A DNA stretch of 64,000 bases from Rhynchonema sp. JSB1_4 (taxonomy: Eukaryota > Nematoda > Chromadorea > Monhysterida > Xyalidae): assembly GCA_030248065.1 (NCBI GenBank), contig JASAMV010002174.1, forward strand, positions 58,460 through 122,459, in the 5' to 3' direction. Position numbers and translations under genes: made by a program. Shown here piece after piece: positions 5,338 through 59,663 of the stretch; the first letter of the stretch is position 1, and each line of letters opens with the position of its first letter. The notes beneath the pieces are model-generated. The model ran no database searches and was not told the DNA's origin. It saw only the letters and a program-made list of their open reading frames with translations.

Positions 5338-8300
5338 AGTTCAAGTTCAAGTTCAAGTTTTTTATTGCATCAGAAGCAACATGGTAACGTCAACAACACG
5401 CATAAGCTGGACAGTAACGACGAAACCATAAATAATCACAAGTGTTTAGTGGGCCAGTGGAAGTTACAGATCGAGAGGTGTAGATGATGATAAGGAGCAA
5501 AAAACACAGAAAACACAGAAACACAGCATGATCGGTCAATTACATTTCACACACGGACGGAATAAATTTCACTGGCAGCAATCGCAATTTGTACAACAAT
5601 TCAACAATCAAGCTTTGCGAACGAATGACTCCTTTGAATGTGCCCATTCGCAGGAAAACAGCAAAATCAGGTAAAGCATTGTAAAGATGGGACATGATAA
5701 CAATAGCACTGGTAGCGAGAATATGAGTTTTAGCACGTGGGATACAAATGGCACGAGAATGATTAAGACGAGAACTGGAGCGAGAATTGGAATCAGAAAT
5801 GAACGAAATAGAGTCAACAGGAGCAGCACGAATACCAAGAACATAAGAATGCATCAATCTCAGACGACGTTTCATGACAGTGACACCCACATAATCAACA
5901 CCAAACATTGAACACAACTGCGAATATGACACAGACCGATCATAATTGCCAGAGAACATGCGAATAATGGATTTTTGTGTTCTTTCCAACAAATTACGTG
6001 AATAGTCATGAATAGGATAGGTCACCTCACACGAATAGTACATGACAGAGCAAATCAAGGTTTGATACAGATAACGCATGACAGACACAGGTAGATCATT
6101 ACGAAAGGTACGGTACAATGAACCAGCAATTTTCTTCACTTTCACAGATGTGGCAGTAGTATGCAAGCCAAAATCAAACTTGGAATCAATAACAGCACCC
6201 AGATATTTGTTTGCATCGACAACATCAATCAGACATTCATCAATCACAATAGCAGGGACAGCGGGACATGAACTTGAGCGAGCAAATTGTTGGAGTTTTG
6301 TTTTGGTAGAATTAATGGAGAGAAGTTTGTGTTTGGAGAAGTGCTCGACAATCAAGTTCACATCCTCTTGCAAATGCTTCTCACAGTCAGGTGTACACAT
6401 GAAGTGAATCAGTACCAGATCATCGGCATAGAGAATAATACGTGAACACGGAGAGAAATGCAGTTTTGCAACAGAGTTGACGTATGCGAGAAACAATAAC
6501 GGTCCTAATACACTGCCCTGCGGCACACCAGAGAGAACAGACAAGAAATCAGAACACACACCATTTACATTCACACATTGGGTTCGATCAGACAAATAGG
6601 ATTGAACCAACAACAATAAATCGGGTGGAACATTGAAATCGTCTTGTAATACACGCAATAATAGATTGTGAGGAACGGTATCGAAAGCCTTTCGAACATC
6701 AAAATACACAGCAACAACAGAATTTGAAACATCAAGAGCACGAGTAACTGTAGTATTGAAATGCAACAGGGCCTCAGTTGTAGACCGACCTCCACGAAAA
6801 CCGAACTGCGTTTCTGAGAGTTTGGGGGCAATGAACCCGTTCAGGATGTTTCGAACGTGCTTCTCAGCGATTTTTGAGCACAGCGGTAATTTGGAGATGG
6901 GGCGGAAGTCCGATGGGTTTTGAGGGGTCTTGACTTTCGGCACGGCAGTGGCAACGGCCCGTTTCCAACCCGACGGCCACGTGTGTTCGTCTATCGATCG
7001 ATTGATGAGCACAGCGAGAGCCGGAGCGATCACGTGGGCACAGTTCTTAAGCATTTCGCCGGTGATGCCATCGATGCCACTGGCCTTGCGAGGGTCGGCT
7101 GTGATGAGACTGTAAAGCACGTGTGAAACATCAGTGTACCATTCGGGTGGCACGGGACCGGTTGAGTTCAGAACCAGTGCCTCAACGTCATTGACGTTCC
7201 ATACACTGGAGAAATGTGTTGATAACAGTGCAGCCAAACCAGCACTGTCAGCAACGCACTCCCCATCAGTGTTGGCCAGAGACACTTGTTCTGTGCTGCT
7301 CCGTCCCGTGTACTTATTCAGCTTTTGCCAGTAGTCAGACAGATGAGCTATTTTACCAAACGTTTTGATGGCATAGTCACGTCTGGCTGCCCTGTTGGCC
7401 TGCCTTGACTGCTCACGCAAAACAAAGTACTTTTCATACGTTCCTTTATCACCGGTCTGTTTCCACTTCCTGTGCAGATCGCTCTTCTTCCGACTGAGCC
7501 GCTTGACCTTCGGCGTCACCCACGGCTGGTCATTCTGTGGTCTTGGGCGAGCGGATCGGACAGGAATGGCATTCGTAGCAGCACCAACGATCGTTTGACT
7601 GATTGCGTCCCAGGCCTGATTCACGTCTACTGCATCAACAACCTGTTTTATTACCAGGTTGTAGGCGATGAGCAAACTGTTCATCAAGTCCCAGTCGGCC
7701 TTCTTGTACTGCCAGACACGGCGCAGCGGAGCGTCGGATGGAGACTGGGTGCTGGAAATATCGAATGTTACTGATGTCATGTGATGGTAGTTTTCGATTG
7801 GTGCAAGGAGTTCGTATTGTACCGCCAGATGGTCAGGCACAAATGTAACATCAATTAATCGACCCTTGTGAGTCGGTTCAGTGATGACCTGGGCGAGATT
7901 ATATTGTTTGAGAGTATTTTCCAGGTTTTTGAACTCAGCTGGCACCAAAGCACACATGTTTACATCACCCGAAACAATAATGTTGTCAAACTTTCCTGTT
8001 TGTGTCACCAAAGCCAATACCGTACTGAGTCCATCGACAAACGTGGCGTTGTTGCACGACGGCGGCTTGTACACACTGATCACACAGCACTTGACCCCGG
8101 CAATCGTGTAGGCGACGGGTAGAATTTCTAGATTATCAGGAATTTTGACAGGCATCATGTATGGGTTGTGACTGTTATTAATGTAAACCCCGACACCACC
8201 ACCGTGCTGAGTTCGGTTCCTCGCGAAGAATCGATAATTTGGGATCTTGAAATCGTCACATGATTGATCGTCCAACTTGGTTTCTTGGACGCACAGCACA

Positions 8301-8539
8301 TCGGGTCGGGGCTCGGACGTTGCACAATGCACGATCAATTCATCAAATTTGTGTTTAGTTGCTAAACCATTCACATTCACAGATTGCACACACACAGAAT
8401 ACATAATGGACATGAACATGTAACACAGACACAGCATACACAAAGCAAGAACACGCAACATGCTATTGGGTGAGATGAGGGGCTGCCACAGCACAGAAAA
8501 CCGCGGGAATGGTTGTGAAAACGGGTTACGGTAATGCAA
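5338..8539 (-). mobile_element. Non-LTR retrotransposon (LINE) with intact ORF
   Basis: The element is read on the minus strand. Its 3' end is an AATAAA signal followed by ACTTGAACTTGAACTTGAAC (5338-5358 on the plus strand), a short tandem tail of the kind that ends CR1/L2/Rex-like LINEs rather than poly(A). One uninterrupted ORF fills 5540-8539. The 5' end is not defined: the sequence from 8540 to about 9060 could be 5' UTR, but no ORF1 is recognisable there. No target duplication was found. An intact 1-kb-residue ORF suggests recent activity. Confidence 0.85.
5540..8539 (-). CDS. LINE polyprotein: APE-type endonuclease and reverse transcriptase
   Basis: This single 999-residue frame begins with a hydrophobic leader of about 45 residues. 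An apurinic-like endonuclease follows (about 50-260), with a QET at 85-87, GDVNM at 191-195 and a terminal HHM at 252-254 in place of the usual SDH. The reverse transcriptase spans about 480-800. It shows KASGIDGI near 485, FRPIS at 545-549, FDVRKAFD at 613-620, GVPQGSVLGP at 671-680 and the catalytic YADD at 704-707. The encoded enzyme would nick chromosomal DNA and copy the element RNA at the nick. The motif set fits the Jockey/CR1/L2 group; the exact clade needs a tree. No frameshift or stop was seen, which is unusual beside the many decayed repeats here. Confidence 0.93.
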   Translation of the reverse strand: MHYRNPFSQPFPRFSVLWQPLISPNSMLRVLALCMLCLCYMFMSIMYSVCVQSVNVNGLATKHKFDELIVHCATSEPRPDVLCVQETKLDDQSCDDFKIPNYRFFARNRTQHGGGVGVYINNSHNPYMMPVKIPDNLEILPVAYTIAGVKCCVISVYKPPSCNNATFVDGLSTVLALVTQTGKFDNIIVSGDVNMCALVPAEFKNLENTLKQYNLAQVITEPTHKGRLIDVTFVPDHLAVQYELLAPIENYHHMTSVTFDISSTQSPSDAPLRRVWQYKKADWDLMNSLLIAYNLVIKQVVDAVDVNQAWDAISQTIVGAATNAIPVRSARPRPQNDQPWVTPKVKRLSRKKSDLHRKWKQTGDKGTYEKYFVLREQSRQANRAARRDYAIKTFGKIAHLSDYWQKLNKYTGRSSTEQVSLANTDGECVADSAGLAALLSTHFSSVWNVNDVEALVLNSTGPVPPEWYTDVSHVLYSLITADPRKASGIDGITGEMLKNCAHVIAPALAVLINRSIDEHTWPSGWKRAVATAVPKVKTPQNPSDFRPISKLPLCSKIAEKHVRNILNGFIAPKLSETQFGFRGGRSTTEALLHFNTTVTRALDVSNSVVAVYFDVRKAFDTVPHNLLLRVLQDDFNVPPDLLLLVQSYLSDRTQCVNVNGVCSDFLSVLSGVPQGSVLGPLLFLAYVNSVAKLHFSPCSRIILYADDLVLIHFMCTPDCEKHLQEDVNLIVEHFSKHKLLSINSTKTKLQQFARSSSCPAVPAIVIDECLIDVVDANKYLGAVIDSKFDFGLHTTATSVKVKKIAGSLYRTFRNDLPVSVMRYLYQTLICSVMYYSCEVTYPIHDYSRNLLERTQKSIIRMFSGNYDRSVSYSQLCSMFGVDYVGVTVMKRRLRLMHSYVLGIRAAPVDSISFISDSNSRSSSRLNHSRAICIPRAKTHILATSAIVIMSHLYNALPDFAVFLRMGTFKGVIRSQSLIVELLYKLRLLPVKFIPSVCEM

Positions 8540-9507
8540 AAAATTTGACAGGGGTTGGGAAGGCTAAATTGTTTGTGAAAAAAACCTGGGAAAAAGCTCA
8601 CAATAACGATAAAACTACTTAAAAACCAAACAGAACTGACCTGTACACGATCGGCGAAAACGGCGTTGAAAAAGAGAGGGGGGAGGGGGGGATGACCGAG
8701 AAAAATAACAAATTGAAAAATTTATATGGAGATGAGGCGAGGAAAACTATGACAGGGATTACCAGAATTTTATAAAGCAGGAATGGAAACAAGCTAAGCA
8801 CGAAAAGTTGGGAAGAAGAAAAACAAGGAGAATGGCAGAAAAAATGAGCAAAAATGAACCAGAAACAAGCGAGAACGACAACAGAGAAGGTTGGAACGAG
8901 CCGAGCGTGCACGCTTACTTGCAAAAAGGCAAGCGCACAGCACGGCGCAAGAAGAGAATGAACGAAAAGAGTCGCGAATAGAGCCTCGGGGCTCTGTTTG
9001 GAATATTTTCCGAAGCGGGCTGTAACCGGAAAACTCCGGTACTGTGTAAACACGTCCAGCATTTTTCACGCGCCAGCAAAATTCTGCATCCGAGCAACGT
9101 TATTTGGCAGACGCGAACTCGATTATGCATGATGTTTTAGCATGGGATGCTCTTTAACCAAACCGCACTATTTTATTTGTTTTGGTGTATTTTATTCATG
9201 TATTTTCAATTAAATTGGCCTGCATCTGAAGCCGGCAGCCATGGTGGCGAAATAAAATTAATAGGTAATGAGCAGTAAGCTGTAAAATTCGTGAAATGCG
9301 AAACAAAAGTGGGTTTAGTCATCGCTGTGGCTTTCGTAGCCCCAAAGAACTTTTTTGTTCTTGCGGCCTGTTCAGCAAAAATAATTGTGAGTGAGATACA
9401 TTCATAAACCAAAACTTACATTAATCTCGTTTCAGAGCTCAGAAACAAATATAACTTTGCAGGTGCACTCGAAGATTTTTACGTTCTTGTGTTAAAAAGA
9501 AAACGCC
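8540..9507. other. Spacer between the LINE and the first cysteine-rich gene
   Basis: No gene is recognised. The left part (to about 9060) may be LINE 5' UTR. At 8978-9040 the sequence has CGGGGCTCTGTTTGG and GGGCTGTAACCGGAAAACTCC. The second string partly recurs inverted at 5035-5055 and as CGGTT near 14760, so it is a dispersed repeat. The right part should hold the promoter of the gene starting at 9508, but no core element can be named. Confidence 0.4.
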
Positions 9508-27080: not shown

Positions 27081-28030
27081 AATCTGGCTCCGAAAGAGCT
27101 CCGGATTCAAAAGCCGATGTCACCATTAGATTTCTCGACCCGAAAACCTTTATACGCACGCACTGTCTTTATGATCAGACCAGTATTGTGCGACTTATTG
27201 CATGGCTTATTTATTCCGGCTCCAGTTCCGGTTCTGGCTCCGAAGAGCTTCGGATTGAAAAGCCAATCACCATTAGATTTCTTACCGAAAACTCTTCCGC
27301 ACGCACTGTCTTTATGTCAGACCAGTATTGTGCGACTTATTGCATGGCTAATATTGAGTTCGGCTCAGTTTTGTTTCTGCTTGAAGAGCTTCGGATTGAA
27401 AAGCCAATGTCACCATTAGATTTCTGACCCGAAAACTATATACCGCACCACTGTCTTTATGTCAGACCAGTATTGTGCGACTTATTGCATGGCTAAATAT
27501 TTGAGTTCCGGTTCCAGTTCCGGTCTGGCTCCGAAGCTTCGGATTGAAAAGCCACTGTCACCATTACCCGAAAACTATACACCCACGCACTGTCTTTATG
27601 ATCAAACCAGTATTGTGCGACTTATTTGCTTGATAAATACTGAGTTCCGGTTCCAGTTCCGGTTCTGGCTCCGAAGAGCTCCGGATTCAAAAACCATGTC
27701 ACCATTAGATTCTCTTCCGAAACTATTTCCGCACCCACTGTCTTTACGTCAGACCATTATTGTGTGACTTATTTGCATGATAAGTACTGAGTTCCGGTTC
27801 CAGTTCAGGTTCTGGCTCCGGAGATCGGATCAAAAACCATGCCACTATCAGATTTCTCGTCCCCGAAAACCTATGTTCTGCACTCACTGCCTTTACGATC
27901 AGACCATTATTGTGTGACTTATTTGCATGGATAAGTACTGTTTCCGGTTCCAGTTCCTTCAGCTCCGAAAGTACTGGATCAAAACCATGTCACCACCGCG
28001 TTTCTCGACCTTCAAAACCCCCTGCCGCCA
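27075..28030. repeat. Tandem repeat of about 145 bp, six to seven copies
   Basis: The phrase CACCATTAG and its variants recur at 27121, 27269, 27411, 27559, 27700, 27840 and 27991, a spacing of 139-150 bases. Each unit holds GTTCCGGTTCCAGTTCCGG, GGCTCCGAAGAGC, TCCGGATT, ACCATTAGATTTCT and ACGCACTGTCTTTATG. Units have diverged by small indels. One frame reads as Ser/Gly/Glu-rich sequence in several units, but indels break it, so I do not call a gene. Sequence 28030-28310 is unassigned. Confidence 0.8.
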
Positions 28031-45332: not shown

Positions 45333-46998
45333 AAAGGGCTCGGGACACAACCGAAGGAAGGGCAGCAGAGCGTAGTGTTATACATCGTTGGAAAGCACTG
45401 TGACAGCATATGTCACGCACAAATGTTAAGCTCCTTAGAGATTCGCTATCTCTTGGTAGAGCGACTTTTCGTTCCAGAAAAAAGTAGATTTTTTCACAAC
45501 TTGAAACGACCGGTGCAGAAACCCCAAGTGAGTTTAAAGTCAAGTAACACGTGGATAGGATCACAACGGCTTCTGGATAACTTATCATGAGAACTTCAGT
45601 CGCTCAAAACATTGCTTCACTCGGTGAGGGCGCGAAATGTTCCAAAAATCGGCCACATTTTTCGAAAACACAAGTTTGTCTCTAAATTTTGAGGCCGCGC
45701 TTTGTGCTGCAGAAATGAAAGTGCAATAGCAAAATAAAGCGCTTTCGAAAGTACCAGAAAATATGGTTTTTAGATTTGGAAACACTTAGATAGCGGCGTG
45801 ACAGGCCGAAAAAGACCTAAAAATTGCCCCTAAACTACATAGTTGCATTCATTGACGGAAATGCGATGTAAATAAGCCACGTATTGCATTGCATTGGAAA
45901 CGAGAAAGTCAGATAAACGCACAGTCGAACAATCTAGACGAGTTTCAAAACTTCAAACTCAATGGACCGGCTGCTCCAGCCATGCTAACCTGAATAAGAT
46001 ATTTGGCTATAATTCGTTACTGTTAACGACTATTGCACATTTGATAGCACCAACCTTTGTGGCTTTAAAATAGCTATCGAACGATATATAACATGCCCAT
46101 ACTATCTCTTACTATGGACAAGAAACGGTCAAAATTCCGAAATCGCACACGGTGAGGTGACGGTTCATTCCAGAATCGTCAAAAAAGCAATTTTTTAGCC
46201 TCTGCCCTTAAGCGTAAGAATTTATTGGGGCTTGTTATATATCGTTCGAAAGCTACTCCCGAGACACATTGTTTGGTGCAGTCACATTTACAATAGCTGT
46301 TAACAGTAAGCATTTATAGCTGAATATCATATTCAGGTTAGTATGGCTGCCCCGAGAGATCTGTAGACCTAGAGGTTTTCGGACCGTAAAAGGTTGTTAA
46401 ACCAGACGTTTCTCTCATTTTTTTGTTTCGAATCCGATACAATCTGTGGCCTTTGTGTGTCACAATTCTGGCGATGAATGTAACCACCTAATTTAGCTTC
46501 GATTTAATGGATTTTTAGGCCTGTCACGGAGCTAGCCACGAGTTAAAAAATTTAAAAACCTTATTTTCTGGTACTTTCGACGATGCTCTATTTTCCCATT
46601 GCATTCTTATTTCCACAGCGCTAAGCGTGACCTCAAAATTTAGGGACAAGCTTGTGTTATCGAAAAATAAGGCCGACTTTCGGAACGTTTCGCACCCTTA
46701 CCGTGTGAAGCAATGGTTTGAGCGACCGAAGTTGTGATGGTAAGTTATTCTGAAGCTGTTGTAATCCTATCCGCGTGTTACTTGACCTTCAACTCGTTTG
46801 GGGTTTCTGCACCGGTCGTTCCAATTTGTACAAAAATTCAGTTTTTTCTGGAACGAGAAGTCCCTCTACCAAGAGATAGCGAATCTCCAAGGAGCTTAAA
46901 ATTTGTGCGTGACATAGGCTGCCGGAATGCTTTCCAACCGTATGTAACAATATGTCCTGCTACCCATCCTTCGGTTATGTCCCGAGCCCTTTAATGAG
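45333..46998. mobile_element. 1.67-kb giant imperfect palindrome
   Basis: The ends are TAAAGGGCTCGGGACA and TGTCCCGAGCCCTTTA, and similarity between arms continues almost to the centre near 46140. Arms differ by roughly one base in five. Each arm carries a frame of about 85 codons ending in SRAL (45331-45588 minus, 46734-46994 plus). Their differences are mostly amino-acid changing, so they do not look protein-constrained. Foldback-type element; superfamily unknown. Confidence 0.8.
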
Positions 46999-47306
46999 TC
47001 TTCCCGGCACGGATCATACAGCGTATCATTGCGGTCCAGTGCTCATTAGGGTCCAGCGCGCATTAGGGTCCCATGCTACACTTGGGTCCAGTAGCGTTAG
47101 GGTCCATAACATTAGGGTCCACCCGTCGTTAGGGTCCATAGCATTAGGGTCCACCCCTCAGTAGGGTCCATAGCATTAGGGTCCACCTGACAAAGTGTAG
47201 CAGTAGGGCCCACTGACCATTAGGGTCCATAGCATTAGGGTCCACCTGACAAAAGTGTAGCAGTAGGGTCCACTGACCATTAGGGTCCATAGCATTAGGG
47301 TCCACC

Positions 47307-47698
47307 CAGTGTAGTTCCTGGTCCGGAGGGGGAGATAGCGGACCCTCCGTTTTTTTCGGAGGGGGAGATAGTGTACCCCCGAGGGGGGGAAGGGGGGGAA
47401 GACCCAAATTCGGGGAAAAGTCACTTTTTGAGGTGGAAAATTTGACCTATTTTTGCCCCTTTTTGGAAAAAATTCTTCATAAAAAGGGCATTTTGGCGAC
47501 TTTTGAGAACATTGACCTAAAGATCACACATTTTTGGAATAAAAATGCCCATTTTAGGCCTAAAAATGCCTATTTTAGGCAAAAATTGGGGGGAGATAGT
47601 GTACCCGGAGGGGGAGATAGGGGGATAGTGTACCACCTGAGGGGGAGATAGTGTACCCGAGGGGGGGACCCCCCCTCCCCCCCCCAAGAACTACACTG
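47307..47698 (+). mobile_element. hAT-like non-autonomous element H, copy 1
   Basis: Terminal inverted repeats CAGTGTAGTTCCTGG and its complement (one mismatch), with an 8-bp duplication GGTCCACC on both sides. Inside, GGAGGGGGAGATAG units surround an AT-rich core with TTTTTGAGGTGGAAAATTT and repeated ATTTTAGGC. Inserted in the K repeat array. Confidence 0.88.
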
Positions 47699-48363
47699 GG
47701 TCCACCTGACAAAAGTGTAGCAGCAGGTGACAAAGTGTAGTCTTTTCAGGCTTTGGCTTAGACCCCAGCCACCCCTAATAATACATTGCGTGCAGGCCTA
47801 AGCCTAACAACAATGGTTAGGCCTAAAGAAAGCCTAACCCTGAAATCAATAACTGAATATCGTTCCTTAACCACAGGGTCCCGAGTACGAAGGAGCGCCT
47901 GAAGCTGGCCTGGTATTGGTATTGGGTTTACCCAGGCCTTGGGTCAAAACCAATACCCAATATTAATCCAGAAAAACCCAATACCAAACCAATACCAAAC
48001 CCAATACCAACCCAATACCAGACCAAAAACCCAATACTAACAAGCCAAAACTAAGACCAACACCCGATACCTACCCTGTAGCAGGGGTGGGGGTCCCCCT
48101 AGGTACAGTAGGTAGGTAGGTTAACGCTCCATCCTGGTACAGTAGGTAGTTCGCCGCCCGGCGGCTGGCACAGTAAGTTGCTATTTTTGGCTCAAAATGG
48201 TATAAAATCGGTATTTTTCACTCCAAATAGACGAAAAATCGCGCGCTACGCGCAAAATTAGCGTTTTAGAGAACATTTTCATCAAAATTTCGACCTAAAA
48301 AATTTTGTTCCCGCCTAGCTCGGCCGGTACAGTAGGTAGGTTGCCGCCCCACATTTTAGGTGG

Positions 48364-48634
48364 TATAGTAAGTTTCTAATTTCATTGCCTCATGCATTCG
48401 TACAGACGCAGGAAAACTCCCGTTCGAAGTCGAAGCAGGCAACAGCTCAGCACACAGTGAACAAGCCACGCAGCTGACACACACAGTTTGTGTGACGAAA
48501 CATTCGAAACGCACGCGAGCCAGCTGCGTGGCTTGTTGACTGTGTGTTGAGCTTGTTGCCTGCTTCGACTTCGAACGGGAGTTTTCCTGCGTCTGTACGA
48601 ATGCATGAGGCAATGAAATTAGAAACTTACTATA
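48364..48634. mobile_element. Palindromic MITE, family R2, copy 2
   Basis: TATAGTAAGTTTCTAATT and its mirror bound a hairpin nearly identical to the one at 16004-16268. Flanking ACATTTTAGGTGG and CCACCTAAAATGT extend the palindrome outwards. Confidence 0.85.
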
Positions 48635-48664
48635 CCACCTAAAATGTGGGGCGGCAACCCAAAA

Positions 48665-48933
48665 TAGTAAGTTTCTAATTTCATTGCCTCATGCATTCGT
48701 ACAGACGCAGGAAAACTCCCGTTCGAAGTCGAAGCAGGCAACAAGCTCAACACACAGTCAACAAGCCACGCAGCTGGCTCGCGTGCGTTTCGAATGTTTC
48801 GTCACACAAACTGTGTGTGTCAGCTGCGTGGCTTGTTCACTGTGTGCTGAGCTGTTGCCTGCTTCGACTTCGAACGGGAGTTTTCCTGCGTCTGTAAGAA
48901 TGCATGAGGCAACGAAATTAGAAATTTACTATA
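48665..48933. mobile_element. Palindromic MITE, family R2, copy 3
   Basis: This is a neighbour of copy 2 only 30 bases away, with its loop in the opposite orientation. It ends AAATTTACTATA, with one change from the usual AAACTTACTATA. Confidence 0.85.
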
Positions 48934-49015
48934 CATTAGGTTGCCGCCCCGCCTGGGTAGCTACACTACTGGGTGGACCCTAATGCTATGGACCCTAATG
49001 GTCAGTGGACCCTAC

Positions 49016-49426
49016 CAGTGTAGTTCCTGGTCCGGAGGGGGAACAGGCGGTACCCCCCTTTTTTTCGGAGGGGGAACAGACGTACCCACCTGGGGGGGAA
49101 GGGGGGGAGGGACCCGGAAGGGGGGGAGGACCCAAATTTGGAGAAAAGTCATTTTTTGAGGTCGAAAATTTGGCTCATTTTTGCCCCTTTTTGGAAAAAA
49201 TTCTCCATAAAAAGGGTATTTTGGCGACTTTTGACATCATTGACCTAAAAATCACCCATTTTAGGCCAAAAAATGCCTATTTTAGGCCAAAATTTGCCTA
49301 TTTTAGGTAAAAATTGGGGGAGCAGACGTACTCGGAGGGGGAACAGTGGGGCAGGCGTACCATGGAGGGGGAACAGACGTACCCGAGGGGGGGCCCCCCC
49401 TCCCCCCCCCCCCAGGAACTACACTG
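49016..49426 (+). mobile_element. hAT-like element H, copy 2
   Basis: Ends CAGTGTAGTTCCTGG and CCAGGAACTACACTG match perfectly, flanked by GACCCTAC at 49008-49015 and 49427-49434. GGAGGGGGAACAGACGTACC units replace the GAGATAG units of copy 1, while the core is clearly the same. Confidence 0.9.
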
Positions 49427-49690
49427 GACCCTACTGCTACACTTTGTCAGGTGGACCCTAATGCTATGGACCCTACTGAGGGGTGGACCCTAATGCTATG
49501 GACCCTACTGAGGGGTGGACCCTAATGCTATGGACCCTAACGACGGGTGGACCCTAATGCTATGGACCCTAACGCTACTGGACCCAAGTGTAGCATGGGA
49601 CCCTGGACCCTAATGAGCACTGGACCGTAATGATACGCAACCCAATTTGTTGAATGAAATGTAATAAAGAGAAATTACTTACCGTAAATG

Positions 49691-50279
49691 CAGGGTAGTA
49701 CTTGGGGGGGGGGGGGGTGGGGGGGGCATTTTGGGAAAAGCTAGTCCCGTTTCAAAATTGACTTCCCTTTTTCTCAGGCTTAGGCTTGGGCTTAGGCTTA
49801 GGCTTAGGCTTAGGCTTACTATTAGGCGTGGGGGGGGGTCCCCCCCAAATTCATCTATCTATCGTCAACACTTTTTGATTTCATCTATCTATCGTCAACA
49901 CTTATGGGCAAATCTATCTATCGTCAACAAATTCTGGGAACAATCTATCTATCGTCAACACATTTCGACCCCAAAATGGGTATTTTTGCCTCAAAATGGC
50001 TCAAAATCGATATTCTTTGTCCCAAATAGGCAAAAAATCGCGCGCTACGCGCGGATTTAGTACATCTAAGTACATTTTCATTAATATTTACACATTATTA
50101 CCTACTTAGAACACTATACTATACCTTGATTTTTGGCGACCCCCCCACCATCTATCTATCGTCAACAAGTTTTGGTCGACCCCCCCCCCCAGATTTCGGA
50201 CTTGGGTCATCTATCTATCGTCAACACATTTCGGGTCCCAATCTATCTATCGTCAACACCCTGACCAAGTACTACACTG
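49691..50279 (+). mobile_element. hAT-like element B with TTAGGC tract
   Basis: Ends CAGGGTAGTACTTGG and CCAAGTACTACACTG, duplication CGTAAATG at 49683-49690 and 50280-50287. It carries TTAGGC repeats (49775-49827), seven units of CTATCTATCGTCAACA on both sides of the core, and the core palindrome CGCGCGCTACGCGCG near 50039-50053. Confidence 0.9.
49775..49827. repeat. Interstitial TTAGGC telomere-type repeat
   Basis: Six to seven units of GGCTTA with one GGCTTG variant, ending ATTAGGCG. It lies inside element B, so it moves with that element rather than marking a chromosome end. Confidence 0.85.
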
Positions 50280-50825
50280 CGTAAATGCGTAAAAAATAAA
50301 AATAAAAAACCTACCGTATTCCCTAAAATAGAGCCCCCCCAAAAATAGAGCCCCCCCAAAAATACAGCCCCCCCTAAAAGGGGTCAGTGAAAAAATAGAG
50401 CCCCCCCAAAAATACAGCCCCCCCCCGGGGCCCCCCCCCAAGGTACAGTAGGTAGGTTGCCGCCCCTCGCCTGGTACAGTAGGTAGGTTGCCGCCCCTCC
50501 CCTGGTACAGTAGGTAGGTTGCCGCCCCACCTAACTTTTCACCCAAAACATTCATTTTTGGCTTAAAATCAGAGGTCGCAATCGGGCCGGCCCGACCTCG
50601 GGCCGGGCCGGGCCGGGCCGGGCCGAGCCGGGCCGGGCCGCGATTTTGGGCTTTTGGCTCGGGCCGGGCCGGGCCGGGCCGGAGATTTGGAGGGTCGGGC
50701 CGGGCCGGGCCGGGCACCCCGGCCCGAAGCTTCTGAAGTGACTTATTTTACTGAAAAAGTAAGGTTTTTTTGTCCAAAATACTAAAATTTCTGACGGATT
50801 CAGCAAGTAAGTGATCAGTATTGTC

Positions 50826-51574
50826 CAGTGGTGTGGCTACCCAGGCGTGCAATCAACCTACTGTACCACCAGAAAGGCCTGAAATCAACCTACCTACTGT
50901 ACCGACCGGCCGAGCTAGGGGGGAACAAAATTTTTTATGTCCAAGTTTAGATGAAAATGTTCTCTAAAACCCTCAAAATTTTTCGATTATTTGGAATGAA
51001 AAATATGGATTTTATACCATTTTGAGCCAAAAATAGCAACCTACTGTACCAGCCGGGGGGCGGCGACCTACCTACTGTACCAGGATGGCGCATCATCTAC
51101 CTACTGTACCTAGGGGGGACCCCCCAGCCCATAGTAGTGGCTGGGGGGGGGTGGGGGGGGGGGTTACCCCCCCCCCCCCCCCCCCCTCTCAGTACTTACC
51201 TACCACAAAACCCGAGGGGGGGGTTGGGGGGGGGTTGAGTACTTACCTCTCACAACTCCAAATCATACCTCTCACAAGCAATTTTATACCTTTTTAAGGC
51301 AAAAATCGGTGTTTTTCGACCTTATTTTCCCAAAAATCGCGCGCTCCGCGCGCAAACCCACCCATAATACCTATTTTTAGGCGATTTTCGGCAAAAATTT
51401 GGAAAAAGTATTATTTTTACCTCAATTTTTGGCCAAAATTGTATCACAAAAACGGTGTTTTTTCGCCTTTTTGGGTGACCAAAATCATACCTCTCACGCT
51501 TCCGGTCCCAACCCCGCATCATACTTACCTCCCACACATGGGCCTGCCACTACACTGCCCCAGCCACACAGTTG
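50826..51574. mobile_element. hAT-like element A1, inserted in J1
   Basis: Ends CAGTGGTGTGGCTACCC and AGCCACACAGTTG, duplication GTATTGTC at 50818-50825 and 51575-51582. The same position is unoccupied in J3 (58459-58466). Its core has lost the CGCGCGC palindrome. Element C lies in its right end. Confidence 0.9.
51130..51557. mobile_element. hAT-like element C, inserted in A1
   Basis: Duplication CCCCAGCC at 51122-51129 and 51558-51565. The right end is GCCACTACACTG; the left end reads CATAGTAGTGGCTGG, so its first bases are mutated. Units are TACCTCTCACAA and relatives; the core has CGCGCGCTCCGCGCGC (51338-51353). Confidence 0.85.
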
Positions 51575-52093
51575 GTATTGTCTATCTGGCGACTTTTTCA
51601 TGGAAAACAATGAAATTTCAAAAAAAAAATTGATTCAAAAATCGCAAAAATTATGACAAAAATTGGGTTAAAATCTGAGCCAAAAATTCGGGCCGGGCCG
51701 GGCCGGGCCGGAGATTTGGGGGTTCGGGCCGGGCCGGGCCGGAGATTTGGGGGTACGGGTCGGGCCGGGCCGGGCCGGGCCGGAGATTTGGGGGCTCGGG
51801 CCGGGCCGGGCCGGCCAAACCCGGCCCGATTGCGACCTCTGCTTAAAATTGCATAAAATTAGCATATTTGTCTGTAAATAGGCGAAAAATCGCGCGCTGC
51901 GCGCGAAATTAGTGTTTTAGGCCACATTTTCTTCAGTATTTAGACATAAAAAATTTCGGTTTCCAGATGACCCCCCCCCCCAAGTGGTACGACCCCCCCC
52001 CCCCCTAGCTCGGCTGGTACAGTAGGTAGGTTGCCGCCCCGCATTTTGGGTGGTACAGTAGGTTGCCGCCCCGCCTGGGTAGCTACACCACTG

Positions 52094-52299
52094 AGGTCAC
52101 TTATACAAGAACTTGACTTTACGACCCCCAAGCGGGGCCCCCCCCCAACTTGGAATTCCCCGCGTGGGGGTCGTAACGTCCAGTTCTTGTATAAGTGACC
52201 TCAGTGGTGTAGCTACCCAGGCGGGGCGGCAACGCCCCCCCCCCAACTTGGAATTCCCCGCTTGGGGGTCGTAAAGTCAAGTTCTTGTATAAGTGACCT
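52094..52299. repeat. Palindromic spacer between A3 and A4
   Basis: AGGTCACTTATACAAGAACT and its complement face each other around C-runs, and a 31-bp fragment of an A-type end (52202-52232) lies inside. The arms are the flanking sequence of element I, duplicated and inverted. Confidence 0.7.
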
Positions 52300-52678
52300 C
52301 AGTGGTGTAGCTACCCAGGCGGGGCGGCAACCTACTGTACCACCCAAAATGCGGGGCGGCAACCTACCTACTGTACCAGCCGAGCTAGGGGGGGGGGTCG
52401 TACCACTTGGGGGGGGGGGTCATCTGGAAACCGAAATTTTTTATGTCTAAATACTGAAGAAAATGTGGCCTAAAACACTAATTTCGCGCGCAGCGCGCGA
52501 TTTTTCGCCTATTTACAGACAAATATGCTAATTTTATGCAATTTTAAGCCAAAAATGAATGTTTTGGGTGAAAAGTTAGGTGGGGCGGCAACCTACCTAC
52601 TGTACCAGGGGAGGGGCGGCAACCTACCTACTGTACCAGGCGAGGGGCGGCAACCTACCTACTGTACCTTGGGGGGGG

Positions 52679-52713
<35 letters not shown>

Positions 52714-52726
52714 AGCCACACCATTG
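52300..52726 (+). mobile_element. hAT-like element A4
   Basis: Ends CAGTGGTGTAGCTACCC and AGCCACACCATTG, duplication AGTGACCT at 52292-52299 and 52727-52734. The unoccupied site, slightly diverged, is near 54495-54510. The core palindrome CGCGCGCAGCGCGCG is at 52486-52500. Confidence 0.92.
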
Positions 52727-52948
52727 AGTGACCTTGTGTACAACGTTTGTGGTTGAGTATATGGTGATGTAAGGTCTTTTATGGAAGATCTGCACCTAAA
52801 AACACTCAATAATGACCAGTAACACCCTGACAGAACTCCATTTTAGGGGTATTTTTTGGAACATTTTTTGAGATTTTGGGCAGCGAAAAAATACAGCCCC
52901 CCCTAAAAGGGGTCAGTGAAAAAATACAGCCCCCCCTCCTTGTACCGT

Positions 52949-53396
52949 AAAAACCTAAATAGAAGGGGGGGGCTCTATTAACTCACTGACCCCATTTTGG
53001 GGGGCTCTATTACGGGGGGGGGCTCTATTCCGGGGGGGCCTCTATTAATTCACTGACCCGAACCTGAAAAATTGTTCCCAGAAATACCCCCCAAAAACCC
53101 CTAAAAAGGGGTTTGAAAGGATGTTTTTTCGCTTGTTATCGCATTTATTCGTGTCTATTCGTCAATAGGAGGCGTATTATGTGCTCTGAACGAACAACAA
53201 ACGTGCATAAATGTACCTGTACACCACTATCAAGCCTTAATACACTACAGTATAGGGGATGTTACTTAGGGGGGGGCTCTATTCCGGGGGGCCTCTATTA
53301 ATTCACTGACCCCTTTTTGGGGGGGCTGTATTACGGGGGGGCTCTATTCCGGGGGGGCTGTATTTAGGTTTTTACGGTATTTTAGGTTTTACGGTA
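52949..53396. mobile_element. Inverted I-type element
   Basis: It opens CGTAAAAACCTAAATAGA and closes GTATTTAGGTTTTTACGG, with GGGGGGCTCTATT and AATTCACTGACCC units on both sides of a unique middle (53060-53260). A partial relative is at 58718-58930. No coding frame. Confidence 0.7.
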
Positions 53397-53507
53397 AACA
53401 GAACAGAGGTAGAGGTCGCGCCCGGCCCGGCCTGACCCGAATTTTTACGGTCAGATTTTTGGGGCCGTGTAGTGTCGACTGTAGGACTGTCGACTGTGAC
53501 TCAGTGC

Positions 53508-54337
53508 CAGAGGTCGCAATCGGGCCGGCCCGAGCTCGGGCCGGGCCGGGCCGCGATTTTGGGCTTTTGGCTCGGGCCGGGCCGGGCCGGAGATTTGGAG
53601 GGTCGGGCCGGGCCGGGCCGGGCACCCCGGCCCGAAGCTTCTGAAGTGACTTATTTTACTGAAAAAGTAGGGTTTTTTTTGTCAAAAAATACTAAAATTT
53701 CTGACGGATTTGGCAAGTAAGTGATCAGCATTGTCCAGTGGTGTGGCTACCCAGGCGTGCAATCAACCTACTGACCACCAGAAAGGCCTGCAGTCAACCT
53801 ACCTACTGTACCGGCCGAGCTTGGGGGGGAATAAAATTTTTTATGTCTAAATTTAGATGAAAATGCACTCTAAAACCCTCATTTCGCGCGCAGCGCGCGG
53901 TCTTTTCGATTATTTGGAGTGAAAAATATCGATTTTATACCATTTTGAGCCAAAAATAGCAACCTACTATGCCAGCCGGGGGTGGCGACCTACCTACTGT
54001 ACCAGGATGGCGCGTCATCTACCTTACCTACCTGCTGTACCAAGGGGGACCCCCACCCCCCAGCCACACCATTGGTATTGTCTATCTGGCGACTTTTTCA
54101 TGGAAAACAATGAATTTTCAACCAAAAAAATAGATTCAAAAATCGCAAAAATTATGACAAAAATTGGGTTAAAATCTGAGCCAAAAATTCGGGCCGGGCC
54201 GGGCCGGAGATTTGGGTGTTCGGGCCGGGCCGGGCCGGAGATTTGGGGGTACGGGTCGGGCCGGGCCGGGCCGGGCCGGAGATTTGGGGGCTCGGGCCGG
54301 GCCGGGCCGGCCAAACCCGGCCCGATTGCGACCTCTG
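53508..54337. mobile_element. hAT-like element J, copy 2
   Basis: Ends CAGAGGTCGCAATCGGGCC and GGCCCGATTGCGACCTCTG, duplication CTCAGTGC at 53500-53507 and 54338-54345. It carries A2 at exactly the position where J1 carries A1. Confidence 0.92.
53736..54074. mobile_element. hAT-like element A2, inserted in J2
   Basis: Ends CAGTGGTGTGGCTACCC and AGCCACACCATTG, duplication GCATTGTC/GTATTGTC (one mismatch). The core keeps CGCGCGCAGCGCGCG at 53885-53899, which A1 has lost. Confidence 0.9.
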
Positions 54338-54352
54338 CTCAGTGCTGTGGCG

Positions 54353-54741
54353 ACCGTATTCCCTAAAATAGAGCCCCCAAAAATAGAGCCCCCCAAAAAT
54401 ACAGCCCCCCCCTAAAAGGGGTCAGTGAAAAAATAGAGCCCCCCCAAAAATACAGCCCCCCCCAACTTGGGGGTCGTAAAGTCAAGTTCTTGTATAAGAC
54501 ACCTTGTGTACAACGTTTGTGGTTGATTATATGATGACGTAAAAAAGCCTTTTATGGAAGATCTGCACCTAAAAAACTCAATAATGACCAGTAACACCCT
54601 GACAGAACTCCATTTTAGGGGTATTTTTTGGAACATTTTTTGAGATTTTGGGCAGCGAAAAAATACAGCCCCCCAAAAATAGAGCCCCCCAAAAAGGGGT
54701 CAGTGAAAAAATACAGCCCCCCTTGTATTTTAGGTTTTACC
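54353..54741. mobile_element. Element I, copy 2 (no large insertion)
   Basis: CGTATTCCCTAAAATAGAGC at the left and TATTTTAGGTTTTACCG at the right enclose AAAAATACAGCCCCCC units and a unique middle beginning CCAACTTGGGGGTCG. It gives the empty sites for elements A4 and G. Sequence 54742-55150 holds further GGGGGGTTCAATT-type units without clear borders. Confidence 0.7.
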
Positions 54742-55153
54742 GTAAACTTTTACGGTACTTTGGCGGGGCGGGTAGGGTTCATAGGTGGAAAAAATCGGGA
54801 CGGGTAGGGGGGTACCGTATTGTCGGAATCGGAAATAGAACCCGGGGGGTCTATTTTTTCACTGGGGTCATTTTGGGGGGTTCAATTTATGGGGGGGTCA
54901 ATTATTGGGGGATTATATTTTTTATTTGGCCCCCCCCCCGACGAAAAAAATCATTGTTTATAATGCCCATAAAAATGGCTTGTTTTGGGCGCGGTATTTT
55001 CTAACTTCAACAGCGGCAATTATGCTTAAAAAGCAGTATTATGTTGTGTACGCAAGCTTAAACAACGTTTGACACAACAACACAGCCCTACCATACCACT
55101 AATCTGTGGTGGGGTGAAGGTTGGGGTGGGGTTCTATTAATGGGGGGTCAATT

Positions 55154-56041
55154 ACTGTATTCCCTAAAATAGGGCCCCCAAAATAGAGCCCCCCCCCCCA
55201 AAAATACAGCCCCCCCTATCCCTAAACGGGGTCAGTGAAAAAATAGAGCCCCCCCAAAAATACAGCCCCCCCCACCCCAACCAGTGTGGTGGCAGGCCAA
55301 TCGACCCAAGATACCCTAGGGGGGGGGGGGAAGGTTTCGGACTTACTCGAGATACCCCCCAGAGGCTACCCAAGATACCCCTATGGTCCGTCAAAAGGCG
55401 AAAAGAGGCCGTTTTTTGCATGCAATTTTACTGCAAAATTGGCCTAAAAATGGGTATTTTTTGACATTTTTGCCGAAAATTGGCCTAAAAGGACCATTTT
55501 TGGGTGTCTGCGCGCGGAGCGCGCGATTTTTGGGGGTCCCGAGGTCGAAAAACACCTATTTTTGCCTTTGAAAACCATAAATCTACTTACTCGAGATACC
55601 CTTTGGGGTCGGCTGGGAAGATATAGATACCCCTTCCCCCCCCCACCCCCCCCCTAAGGGTTGACTCGAGATAGATACCCCTTAGGGGGAATCCCCCCCC
55701 CCATCCCCCCCCCCCAGCCACTACAGTGCCCCCAACTTGGAATTCCCCGCTTGGGGGTCGTAAAGTCAAGTTCTTGTATACGACACATTATGTACAACGT
55801 TTGTGGTTGAGTATATGATGACGTAAAGCCTTTTATGGAAGATCTGCACCTAAAAACACTCAACAATGACCAGTAACACCCTGACAGAACTCCATTTGAG
55901 GGGCATTTTTGGGGAAATTTTTTGAGATTTCGGGCAGCGAAAAAATACAGCCCCCCAAAAATAGAGCACCCAAAAATACAGCCCCCCTAAAAGGGGTCAG
56001 TGAAAAAATACAGCCCCCCCCTTGTATTTTAGGTTTTACGG
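55154..56041. mobile_element. Element I, copy 3, split by element G
   Basis: It has the same ends and middle as copy 2; the break falls at the C-run before CCAACTTGG, where copy 2 is continuous. Confidence 0.7.
55282..55738. mobile_element. hAT-like element G
   Basis: The left end is CAGTGTGGTGGCAGGCC, the right end CAGCCACTACAGTG, and the duplication ACCCCAAC/CCCCCAAC (one mismatch). Units are TTACTCGAGATACCC and ATAGATACCCC; the core has CGCGCGGAGCGCGCG at 55510-55525. Confidence 0.8.
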
Positions 56042-56157
56042 TAATGGGGGGTTCTATTTTTGATTTCTAGCCATTTAGGGGGGTTCAATTAATGGGGGGG
56101 TTCTATTTCCGACAATACGGTAGTGTACCTGGGATTTGGGGGGAATCCGGTTTGGGG

Positions 56158-56584
56158 CAGTGTTGGAGGTACTCTGGAGGGGGGATACCTACTGTACCGC
56201 GCTCGGAGAGGGGGGGATACCTACTGTACCAAAGCCGATGGCCTGGGGGGGGGGGTTATGTACCTTGGGGGGGGGGGTTTGGTTTTGGGGGGAAAATTTT
56301 CAATGTTTTTATTAGGTGTGGAATCGTGTGAAAACGTAGTATTTGCGCGCGTAGCGCGCGAATTTTGGGTAATTTGAGGCAAAAACCACTGATTTTACAC
56401 TAATTTTGGCCATTTTGGTTTGGGGCAAAATCGGGGGGATACCTACTGTACCGGGGTGAAAATCGGGGGGATACCTACTGTACCATGCCAAACATCGGGG
56501 GGGGGGGATACCTACTGTACCAGGCGAGGGGGGATACCTACTGTACTGGGGGGGGGGGCTACCCCCCCCCCACCTCCAACACTG
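56158..56584. mobile_element. hAT-like element D
   Basis: Ends CAGTGTTGGAGGT and ACCTCCAACACTG match perfectly; duplication GTTTGGGG at 56150-56157 and 56585-56592. Six GGATACCTACTGTACC units in one direction flank a core with GCGCGCGTAGCGCGCG (56345-56360). A truncated copy is at 58970-59040. Confidence 0.92.
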
Positions 56585-56644
56585 GTTTGGGGGCGAGGGG
56601 GGGCAGATTTTTCGGGACGGGTAGGGTACAACCAGTGTAGTGGC

Positions 56645-57029
56645 CAGTGATGTAGTTGGTCCGAGCAAGAAAGCTAGCTAGCTGGAGGGGTCCGGCACAA
56701 GAAAGCTAGCTAGCTAGCCGGGTACCCCGATTTGGGGGGGTATTGGTCCAGAAGTCAAAAACAGGGGTTTAAAATTTGGTCTAAATTATGCTAAAATAAG
56801 CCTTAAAATGCGTATTTTTGTGCACGTGCGAGAAAATTTGAACGAATTTGAGCATTTTGGCCCATAAAATGGTCATTTTGGCACTAAAATCAACACTTTT
56901 CTTACTTGATGACCGGAGCAAGAAAGCTAGCTAGCCAGTTTGGGGGGGTATGGGTTTCGGAGCAAGAAAGCTACCTAGCAGTTGGGGGGGTAATACCCCC
57001 CCCCCCATACCCCCCCAACCACAACACAG
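56645..57029. mobile_element. hAT-like element E, inserted in F
   Basis: Ends CAGTGATGTAGTTGG and CCAACCACAACACAG (imperfect), duplication GTAGTGGC at 56637-56644 and 57030-57037. Units are GCAAGAAAGCTAGCTAGC. Its core keeps only GCACGTGCGAG where other families have the CGCGCGC palindrome. Confidence 0.88.
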
Positions 57030-57054
57030 GTAGTGGCAGGCCGATGTTTGCAAG

Positions 57055-57462
57055 CAGTGTAGTTCCTGGGGGGGGGAGGGGGGGACCCCCCCTCGGGTAC
57101 GTCTGTTCCCCTCCGAGGTACGCCTGCCCCACTGTTCCCCCTCCGGGTACGTCTGCTCCCCCCAATTTTTTCCTAAAATGGGCAAATTTAGGCCTAAAAT
57201 AGGCATTTTTAGGCCAAAAATAGGTAAACTTTAGGTGAAACCTCCAAAAAAACGCCAAAATACCCTTTTTATAGGGGATTTTTCGCAAAAGAAGGCAAAA
57301 ATAGTCCAATTTTTCGACCTCAAAAAATGACTTTTTTCCGTCCCCCCCCCCAAATTGGGACTTCCCCCCCCCCCCTTCCCCCCCCCAGGTAGGTACGTCT
57401 GTTCCCCCTCCGAAAATAGTGGAGGGTACGTCTGTTCCCCCTCCGGACCAGGAACTACACTG
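57055..57462 (-). mobile_element. hAT-like element H, copy 3, inserted in F
   Basis: Ends CAGTGTAGTTCCTGG and CCAGGAACTACACTG, duplication TTTGCAAG/GTTGCAAG (one mismatch). Orientation is opposite to copies 1 and 2. Confidence 0.88.
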
Positions 57463-58294
57463 GTTGCAAGGTACCCTTGGGGGGGGGATGGATCCAGATG
57501 GTTGCAAGGTACCCCCTACCCAGCCTCCGGGAGGTTGCAAGGTACCCCTGAGGTCCGAAAAAAGGGTGTTTTTTGCATGCATTATACTGCAAATTTGGCC
57601 GAAAAATTGGTACTTTTTTGCATTTTGGCCGAAAATTTGCCTAAAATACCTATTATATGGAGGTTTGCGCGCGGAGCGCGCGATTTTTGGGGTTTTGAGG
57701 TCGAAAAACAGCCATTTTTGCCTATAAAAACCATAAATTGATGGTTGCAAGGTACCCTCCGGGGTGGTTGCAAGGTACCTACCCTTCCCCCCCCATCCCC
57801 CCCAAGGGGTGGTTGCAAGGTACCTACTCCTTAGGGGGGGGAATCCCCCCCATCCCCCCCAGCCACTACACTGGGTACAACACAAGTTTTTTCGGGTGGC
57901 TGTTTTTATGCACTAAAAAGTACTTGCACTTTTTAGGGTTTTCGGTCGAAATTTTGCATTTTTGACCGAAAAATGGGCATTTTGAGGGTAAAAATCGGGG
58001 CGGGTAGGGTACCAGGGCGGGGCGGGTGGGTAGGGTACCACAGCGGGGTGGGTAGGGGGTAGTGTACCAGGGCGGAGCGGGTAGGGTACCATTGGGGGGA
58101 CCCCCCTCCCCCCGCCCAGCCCCAGGACTGGCAGGCACTGGCACTGTGTGACTTTTTACTACGGTAGATTCCCGTGTGTTTTCTGATCGCTGCTGGAGCA
58201 GCGCGCGGAGACCGCTATCGGCTATGGGGTACGGTAGCTTTTGCTGACTGTGCTGGAGCTACCGTAATAAAAAGTCACAGTCGTACAGTCCTAC

Positions 58295-58683
58295 AGTCGA
58301 CACTCCCAAATCTCCGGCCCGGCCCGAACCCCCAAATCTCCGGCCCGGCCCGAATTTTTGGCTCAGATTTTAACCCAATTTTTGTCATAATTTTTGCGAT
58401 TTTTGAATCTATTTTTTGGTTGAATATTCATTGTTTTCCATGAAAAAGTCGTCAGATAGACAATACTGATCACTTACTTGCCGAATCCGTCAGAAATTTT
58501 AGTATTTTTGACAAAAAATCTATTCTTTTTCAATAAAATAAGTCACTTCAGAAGCTTCGGGCTTGGCGGGGTGCCCGGCCCGGTCCGGCCCGACCCTCCA
58601 AATCTCCGGCCCGGCCCGAGCCAAAAGCCCAAAATCACGGCCCGGCCCGGCCCGAGGTCGGGCCGGCCCGATTGCGACCTCTG
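58295..58683 (-). mobile_element. Element J, copy 3, truncated and without the A insertion
   Basis: GGCCCGATTGCGACCTCTG marks the right end; the left end stops inside the (CCGGCCC) block. GACAATAC at 58459-58466 is the single, unduplicated site occupied by A1 and A2 in the other copies. Confidence 0.88.
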
Positions 58684-58717
58684 TTGCGCACTAAGTAGGT
58701 AATAATGTGTAGGTAAA

Positions 58718-59060: not shown

Positions 59061-59663
59061 CGAAAATCCCGAAAAAAAAATCCCGAAAAAAAAATCCCGA
59101 AACGAAAAATCCCGAAAAGCAAAAATCCCGAAAAAATCCCGAAAAATAAAAAGGTGTATAAATGGACCAAACTTTTTGTCAGAAGTTGGCATTCATGTAG
59201 TTGGTGCTCAGGCTTACATTCAGAATTAGGCTTAGGCTTAGGCTGCCAGCCAGGAAGACCTGTTCATATGAAGGAAACATCAATAAAAACACACATGCTC
59301 AGGCTTTCTTTCAGGCTTAGGCTTAGGCTTAGGCTGCCAGCCAGGAAGACCTGTCCACGTAAAGGAACTATCCACAAAAATACAACGTCCAGGCCTTCGT
59401 TCAGGGTTAGGCTTAGGCTTAGGCTGCCAGCCAGGAAGACATGACCGAACGAGAATTTCAATATCTTGAGCCCCAACTGATCCATTGCCCAAATTATGGA
59501 CTCCAACTACATGAATACCCCTTTCTGCACCTTAAACTTTGTACTTTTCCTCAATTTCATTTTTCGGGATTTTTGCTTTTCGGGATTTTTTTCGGGATTT
59601 TTATTTTTCGGGATTTTTTTTTTCGGGATTTTTTTTTCGGGATTTTTTTTTCGGGATTTTCGA
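59061..59663. mobile_element. Inverted AAAATCCCG arrays enclosing TTAGGC-bearing units
   Basis: Left arm 59061-59150 (CGAAAATCCCG repeats) and right arm 59555-59663 (CGGGATTTTT repeats) are complementary. Between them three units of about 90 bp each start with TTAGGCTTAGGCTTAGGC and continue TGCCAGCCAGGAAGAC (59225, 59311, 59405). A CACCACTG end at 59706-59713 hints that this too lies in a hAT-like element. Confidence 0.65.

Follow-up and report, generated by a model that had tools for sequence, protein, structure and literature searches.

The window analysed here is a stretch of 64,000 nucleotides from the nematode Rhynchonema sp. JSB1_4 (contig JASAMV010002174.1 of assembly GCA_030248065.1, positions 58,460 to 122,459). 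Between 47.3 and 57.9 kb it is a nest of short transposons. These repeats are non-autonomous hAT transposons, that is, miniature inverted-repeat transposable elements (MITEs), whose two arms carry several copies of a short word. In one of them, the E family, two sister subfamilies with similar tips and bodies differ in the word at all six arm sites. For comparison we searched the genome (203.9 Mb in 5,747 contigs).

A nest of hAT MITEs

The nest contains the elements listed below, with the arm word, the terminal inverted repeat (TIR), the target site duplication (TSD) and the position of a central GC palindrome (core).

47307..47698, plus strand: hAT MITE, E family subfamily H; word GGGGGAGATAGTGTACC; TSD GGTCCACC; without GC core
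48096..48975, plus strand: A-type element; core 48240-48253; right arm split by the repeat 48365-48934
49016..49426, plus strand: hAT MITE, E family subfamily I (Ia); word GGGGGAACAGACGTACC; TSD GACCCTAC
49691..50279, plus strand: hAT MITE, family B; core 50039-50053; between two CGTAAATG TSD copies
50436..52093, plus strand: family C copy; word GGTACAGTAGGTAGGTTGCC; core 51891-51905; interrupted by the 50570-51841 insertion
50570..51841, no strand assigned: hAT element; TIR CAGAGGTCGCAATCG; TSD CTTAAAAT; A-type and D elements nested within
50826..51574, minus strand: A340-type element; TSD GTATTGTC; without palindrome; imperfect right tip; D element nested inside
51130..51557, plus strand: hAT MITE, family D; word TACCTCTCACA; core 51338-51352; between two CCCCAGCC TSD copies
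52300..52726, minus strand: hAT MITE, family C; core 52485-52499; TSD AGTGACCT
53508..54337, no strand assigned: hAT element; TIR CAGAGGTCGCAATCG; TSD CTCAGTGC; A340 element nested within
53736..54074, minus strand: A340 element; core 53885-53899; TSD GCATTGTC/GTATTGTC, one mismatch
55282..55728, minus strand: hAT MITE, family F; word CTCGAGATA; core 55510-55525; TSD ACCCCAAC/CCCCCAAC, one mismatch
56158..56584, minus strand: hAT MITE (56158 family); TIR CAGTGTTGGAGG (GGTACAGTAGGTATCC); core 56345-56360; TSD GTTTGGGG
56633..57873, minus strand: hAT MITE, family G; word GGTTGCAAGGTACC; core 57667-57682; TSD GGTACAAC; two nested elements
56645..57029, plus strand: hAT MITE, M family; word GCAAGAAAGCTAGCTAG; TSD GTAGTGGC; sits in the TIR of G; imperfect right tip
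57055..57462, minus strand: hAT MITE, E family subfamily I (Ib); sits within one of the motif copies of G; TSD TTTGCAAG/GTTGCAAG, one mismatch

Fourteen of the elements are bounded by paired hAT-like ends and an 8-bp TSD, which is exact in 11/14 and has one mismatch in 3/14. For the copies at 48096 and 50436 a TSD was looked for and none was found. The bounds of both were set by eye; those of the A-type element at 48096..48975, with its degenerate left end, are approximate, and the C copy at 50436..52093 has lost its left tip. The hAT element at 50570..51841 is 1,272 bp long with CAGAGGTCGCAATC ends, and the nesting order could be read here: the D element (51130-51557) lies in an A-type element, which itself lies in this CAGAGGTCGCAATC-ended element. 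The B element at 49691..50279 exceeds its 471-bp consensus and carries the word CTATCTATCGTCAACA four times on the left and three times on the right, all in one direction. The window copies have bodies of 428 bp (D), 427 bp (C), 427 bp (56158 element) and 447 bp (F), and bounded G copies elsewhere in the genome have 432-444 bp. An earlier note, made from the sequence of the window, had given several families a body of about 427-432 bp, which fits the window copies of D, C and the 56158 element.

The assignment to hAT rests on the TSDs and the ends. Transposons of the hAT superfamily make TSDs of 8 bp with the target consensus nTnnnnAn. From the window and fetched loci we collected 94 candidate elements with paired ends and an 8-bp TSD, in a scan that required exact TSDs and CA..TG and in which some rows are composites or alternatives. 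The 94 TSDs, symmetrised, show the nTnnnnAn preference, with T at position 2 in 49% and A at position 7 in 49%. The ends are mostly short inverted repeats of the CAGTG type, in scans that themselves demanded CA..TG or a close form. The families are non-coding and of high copy number, with consensus lengths of 338-471 bp, and each word-pair pattern was found at over a thousand places genome-wide. Coding elements within the nest were dropped as candidates: the two open frames of at least 150 amino acids that overlap 47.3-57.9 kb had no Pfam match. Membership of CACTA (En/Spm) was rejected on TSDs of 8 bp, not 3 bp, and ends of CAGTG or similar. The piggyBac-type CMITEs of corals were rejected as well, as the TSDs here are 8 bp and varied, not TTAA, and the ends are CAGTG-type, not CCCT-type.

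Among the 94 TSDs, 11 lie inside words of other families, against 0.45 expected for random 8-mers. Since the sample comes from MITE-dense places, we did not count this as a target preference.

Word switches between sister subfamilies

Every family carries its own word in both arms, adjoining runs of G or C, with the exception of GGTACAGTAGGT, which A, C and the 56158 family have in common. The direction of the word was the same in both arms in 15/15 table rows, from 14 families or subfamilies, whose word is not palindromic, and the reverse was found in none. The GATCCC word, which overlaps a palindrome, runs mainly, not exclusively, in one direction. This bears out what the earlier note had described, flanking words that keep one direction left and right of the core and stand next to G or C runs.

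The E family, a third family of the nest, has CAGTGTAGTTCCTGG ends and three copies there (at 47307, 49016 and 57055). We aligned 16 E copies from the window and fetched loci, of which 13 have a TSD with at most one mismatch and three lack a good TSD. By their word they sort into the subfamilies H, I and K, and I has two body types, Ia and Ib. Between H and Ia all six arm words differ. The 35 word columns are 16% identical, a value that exaggerates the contrast as these columns were picked after viewing the alignment, while the other 105 arm columns are 90%, the body 87% and the tips 99% identical. Ia and Ib, in turn, are 97% identical in the words, 89% in the other arm columns, 84% in the body and 100% in the tips. 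The words are therefore shared by the less similar bodies and not by the more similar ones. Within H, Ia, Ib and K the word columns are 98-100% alike, compared with 92-95% for the bodies. The six word sites, the irregular ones included, keep their position in H, I and K with a spacing constant within a few bases. Whatever the choice of columns, one and the same new word is found at every one of six separated sites, in unchanged positions.

H and K are 91.5% identical in the body and 63.3% in the arms. The first half of the H word is common with I and its second half with K, which hints at a two-part word.

The families D, F and G repeat the pattern of the E family more mildly. Using copies that cover at least 90% of the consensus (10 D, 5 F and 5 G), we found that F and G are 84.4% identical in the body and 60.4% in the arms, and D and F 73.6% and 54.6%. 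As judged by eye, the first two left word copies are longer in D, F and G alike, with differing letters. A third case is B versus A and C, where the flanks of the core are alike and the words are not.

We then looked for copies of mixed constitution. Degenerate patterns that admit either word at two neighbouring sites matched 1,929 places for H/I, 1,875 for H/K and 1,138 for F/G. The pure or mixed reading by eye covers the first places listed, and these were pure save three single-base variants each for F/G and H/I. Exact mixed strings were searched in the whole genome for H/I and F/G only, with H/K mixtures outside the search; H then I occurred once, and I then H, F then G and G then F not at all. 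The motif class matched its own body in 12/12 D, 6/6 F and 11/11 G copies (29/29 together) and in 19/19 labelled B copies, counts that omit copies without a clear label (5 TCC, 6 TAC and others). On the body trees the number of label changes is the lowest possible, with seven unlabelled copies per tree uncounted and one copy in the D/F/G set with an L label. This L-labelled TAC copy has a D-like body match, and its label probably comes from a neighbour, as motif classes near nested elements can pick up the neighbour's word. All these copies came from the first contigs listed, near GC cores, and are a non-random sample.

We thus rejected an exchange of motifs between living copies of D, F, G, B and E, given the label-body concordance, the minimum of tree changes and the near-zero mixed pairs, and the word change belongs to the splitting of families. 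The earlier note had proposed a modular element that replaces its motif but keeps its core and ends, and had held that motifs always co-evolving with their cores would speak against it. Replacement stands between families of one group (F/G; H/Ia). As an exchange between living copies it is not supported, given the 29/29 and 19/19 concordance and the mixed pairs (1 H/I, 0 F/G), and in the labelled D/F/G and B copies each motif goes with its body. Against such a pairing stands GGTACAGTAGGT, which pairs with three body classes (16 copies of C, 11 of A340 and 8 of the CAGTGTTGGAGG family), so that at the level of families a word shared across bodies does exist.

The GC palindrome, coding relatives and other repeats

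Nine GC palindromes are present, at 48240, 50039, 51338, 51891, 52485, 53885, 55510, 56345 and 57667, all within two bases of where the earlier note had put them; the first is imperfect (CGCGCGCTACGCGC). The spacer, which the note had given as a single base, turned out to have two bases, a T and any one of the four, and follows the family in most copies. Among 110 distinct cores collected, it was TAC in 44, TCC in 34, TGC in 26 and TTC in 4, with two others. The extended core word AAAAATCGCGCGCNNCGCGCG occurs 2271+2281 = 4,552 times in the genome, as opposed to 0+1 in the reversed control, and CGCGCGCTACGCGCG occurs 1290+1286 times versus 2+6.

To see how far the cores are homologous, we removed the palindrome and compared the 75-bp flanks, with z calculated against 200 dinucleotide shuffles. 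The flanks were clearly alike within {A340, B, C} (z 11.6-14.0) and within {D, F, G} (z 19.7-20.8). All remaining pairs gave z of at most 5.2, the highest being a control (B versus the unrelated M body). Several cross-group pairs reach z 3-5, as do controls, and weak distant homology is neither shown nor excluded by these values. The 56158 family scored z 3.3-4.9 against A340, B and C, in the range of the controls, and its flanks are suggestive of kinship with this group at most. A single clearly homologous core for all families was therefore rejected. Of the one core that the note had seen in all families, the palindromic word of about 21 bp is indeed common, while clear homology of its flanks is confined to the two groups. 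As these groups are separate, the short word is more widely shared than the bodies; this may reflect a common origin, with erosion around a site that was conserved, or else transfer or convergence.

Nor is the core the part that is kept universally. The E, M, N and CCGACAC elements keep the arm plan without the palindrome, and one A-type copy (about 50972) lacks it on direct inspection. Of the A340 copies at about 50972 and 53885-53899 only the second has the palindrome, and each sits in a larger element with its own TSD. In three fetched loci (L071, L081 and L092, near position 505, matching strand) the palindromic word, with spacer TT, stands in a different repeat, which contains GGATCC / GCCATGCC sequence and lacks all the known words. 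We also scanned 46800-58700 for known RNA families, and none reached the Rfam gathering score.

Coding relatives of the MITEs are abundant. The hAT dimerisation domain scored above the cut-off at 150/150 scored places (330 candidates in the genome). Exons for hAT dimerisation and BED domains are frequent in the genome, and none was found inside elements with E, G, B or C words. The search for a partner transposase consisted of word counts, end scans and repeat searches over 30 hAT loci and three stretches, several of which contain other MITEs and words; in one (L041) an M element is inserted within a coding-type element. The CAGTGTTCGAACGGG elements that bear PF05699 hold GATCCC arrays around the dimerisation domain, and CCGACAC elements have arrays around a BED exon or a dimerisation exon. 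CCGACAC-type elements with single transposase exons were seen in L109 and L110 (BED) and in L042, L043, L044, L048 and L066 (hAT dimerisation). The pattern suggests a hAT gene, split or broken into fragments, of which many copies are retained.

Other repeats surround the elements. In the right arm of the A-type element, 48365-48934 consists of a unit of about 299 bp in two near copies (88% matches by Tandem Repeats Finder), which by eye is internally inverted as well. Arrays of the words TAGGGTCCA / TGGACCCTA lie at 47033-47306 and 47699-47750, and at 48968-49015 and 49427-49640. Each is split by an inserted E-family element, and they are probably another element family with its own word. A further repeat family, which has ends like TACCGTA and AAAATAGAGCCCCCC and AAAATACAGCCCCCC among its words, occurs on both strands at 50315-50434, 52880-53400, 54355-54750, 55140-55275 and 55930-56110. 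Outside the nest, arrays of AAAATCCCGAAAAA and its complement face each other (59063-59146 versus 59560-59660) and are perhaps the arms of one more element. A tandem array at 27083-27995 has a period of 147/287/432 bp with copies about 80% alike. Protein matches in the window were to the reverse transcriptase of long interspersed nuclear elements (LINEs), Kunitz and leucine-rich repeat domains, with matches to G-protein-coupled receptors below the cut-off. The LINE-type open frame with the reverse transcriptase (5540-8563, minus strand; 1,007 amino acids stop to stop) had seven database protein matches, which are 22-27% identical. A scan for tRNA genes at the bacterial setting found none in the window.

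How the words may have switched

The earlier note knew of no described family with this plan. At the level of kind it is a known one, hAT MITEs with subterminal repeats. The note had missed the transposon nature, the GGTACAGTAGGT word common to A, C and the 56158 family, and the neighbours that have the same arm plan without a palindrome. The transposase of Herves binds the subterminal motif that is repeated in its element, and it also bound a probe with four direct copies; Ac, Tag1 and Tol2 are other hAT transposons named there with subterminal repeats (PMC3143072). By analogy with Herves, transposase binding would be the leading role for the arms. The elements described here share with such transposons the short inverted ends and the repeated subterminal words, and this genome has hAT coding relatives. 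They differ from the Herves type, as far as the available part of that paper describes it, in the single word direction on both arms, the many coexisting words, the switches at all sites between sister subfamilies with a shared body, and the palindromic core word in some families.

Other systems resemble them in part. In soybean the CACTA (En/Spm) elements Tgmt* and Tgm1 are likewise subfamilies of one species with different subterminal motifs, which differ by 6 base changes, and co-evolution of the motif with its DNA-binding protein was raised as a possibility (PMC2613891). These are large elements of another superfamily with a 3-bp TSD, and the available part of that paper gives no measured contrast of near-identical bodies and switched words. 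In the coral CMITE families the internal region is also more conserved than the ends. In contrast to the elements here, CMITEs are about 100 bp long and have piggyBac-type TTAA TSDs, differing ends and, in the available part of the source, no word arrays (PMC2872659). Kat1, a domesticated yeast hAT, has hexameric subterminal repeats as well, which were proposed to aid hAT cleavage (PMC4763223). In the open-licence literature we found no description of concerted word switching in hAT MITEs, nor of a coordinated switch with this constant direction and on this scale. Motifs that differ between families are known; what is new is that the switch is coordinated and takes place in a body that hardly changes.

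We consider it probable that the arms are transposase-binding arrays and that their word changed in concert as the subfamilies split. An element consists of tips, two arms with 3-8 found word copies together, and an AT-rich body, with the 21-bp GC palindrome in several families. From what is known of hAT biology, the tips would be cut and joined and the bodies would be passengers. The arms would most likely load the transposase, as arrays for its DNA-binding part of the BED zinc-finger type, and so determine the address. Once a lineage of transposases came to prefer another word, the surviving elements would be those with the new word at all sites; subfamilies would split by such a concerted switch, with tips, site positions and body kept. 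The subfamily that matches the new transposase would then amplify as a clone, giving discrete word types with few intermediates.

Several observations weigh against this reading. An autonomous partner with E, G, B or C words was not found at the places searched, and the coding relatives carry other words. The polarity of the Kat1 repeats differs between the ends, while here it is the same (PMC4763223), so in the light of that source direct orientation is no expected sign of hAT binding sites. Within the D, F and G families the arms, which include G runs, are slightly less alike than the bodies. The GGTACAGTAGGT word of three body classes means that there is no strict pairing of word and body. 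The E-family contrast itself is softened by the choice of columns mentioned above, and by eye, with gaps allowed, as few as about four changes at each site may turn the H word into that of I. Between H and K the other arm columns differ as well (60%), for which word rewriting alone is inadequate; block replacement or body exchange is possible there.

How the switch came about is a separate matter. The spacer data favour a change in place for H/I and do not decide for K. That lineages can rewrite a dispersed address word in place, six copies alike, with spacers, body and tips kept and almost no intermediates, is in our view a serious possibility, slightly less likely than not. The six sites may have changed individually under selection, or conversion may have homogenised them, or else the arms are old and it was the bodies that moved between them.

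The last of these is the strongest rival, and we regard it as rather unlikely. Here the arm types would be old and tied to their own transposases, and recombination or gene conversion between the nested, abundant elements would have carried a shared body from one arm type to another, a process that dense nesting would favour. The H/K comparison fits it, with both word and spacer differing around a similar body, as do the three body classes of GGTACAGTAGGT and some I copies whose bodies look mosaic by eye (L031 and L095 versus L020 and the window copy at 57055). However, the other arm columns of H and Ia are 90% alike, and conversion would have to stop at both sides of each short word; the irregular sites hold their place across H, I and K, and no body-arm recombinant was found among the labelled D/F/G and B copies.

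It is improbable that the palindrome is the working centre (a hairpin, replication start or host-factor site) with the arms as iteron-like sites. Its 21-bp word is highly repeated (4,552 versus 1 in the control) and recurs in bodies without clear homology, but E, M, N, GATCCC and CCGACAC elements share the arm plan without a central palindrome, one A-type copy now lacks it, and no Rfam family reached its gathering score in the scan of 46800-58700. That the arms are functionless tandem repeats or satellites born of slippage is hardly credible: they are rich in G runs and simple repeats, but the words keep a constant direction, are irregularly spaced amid other sequence at positions kept between families, and are more alike within subfamilies than the bodies are (in columns chosen afterwards).

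The question of how transposon families escape their old transposases, and of how MITEs come to follow new ones, is still open. In this nematode many word types coexist at high copy number, and the sister subfamilies differ far more in their words than elsewhere. They offer ready-made matched pairs for asking whether the arm word alone decides which transposase mobilises an element, and how many separated sites change together. If rewriting in place is true, it would require either a homogenising process that acts on words of less than 20 bp or very strong, jump-wise selection by a changed transposase, and it would be the way in which hAT families split.

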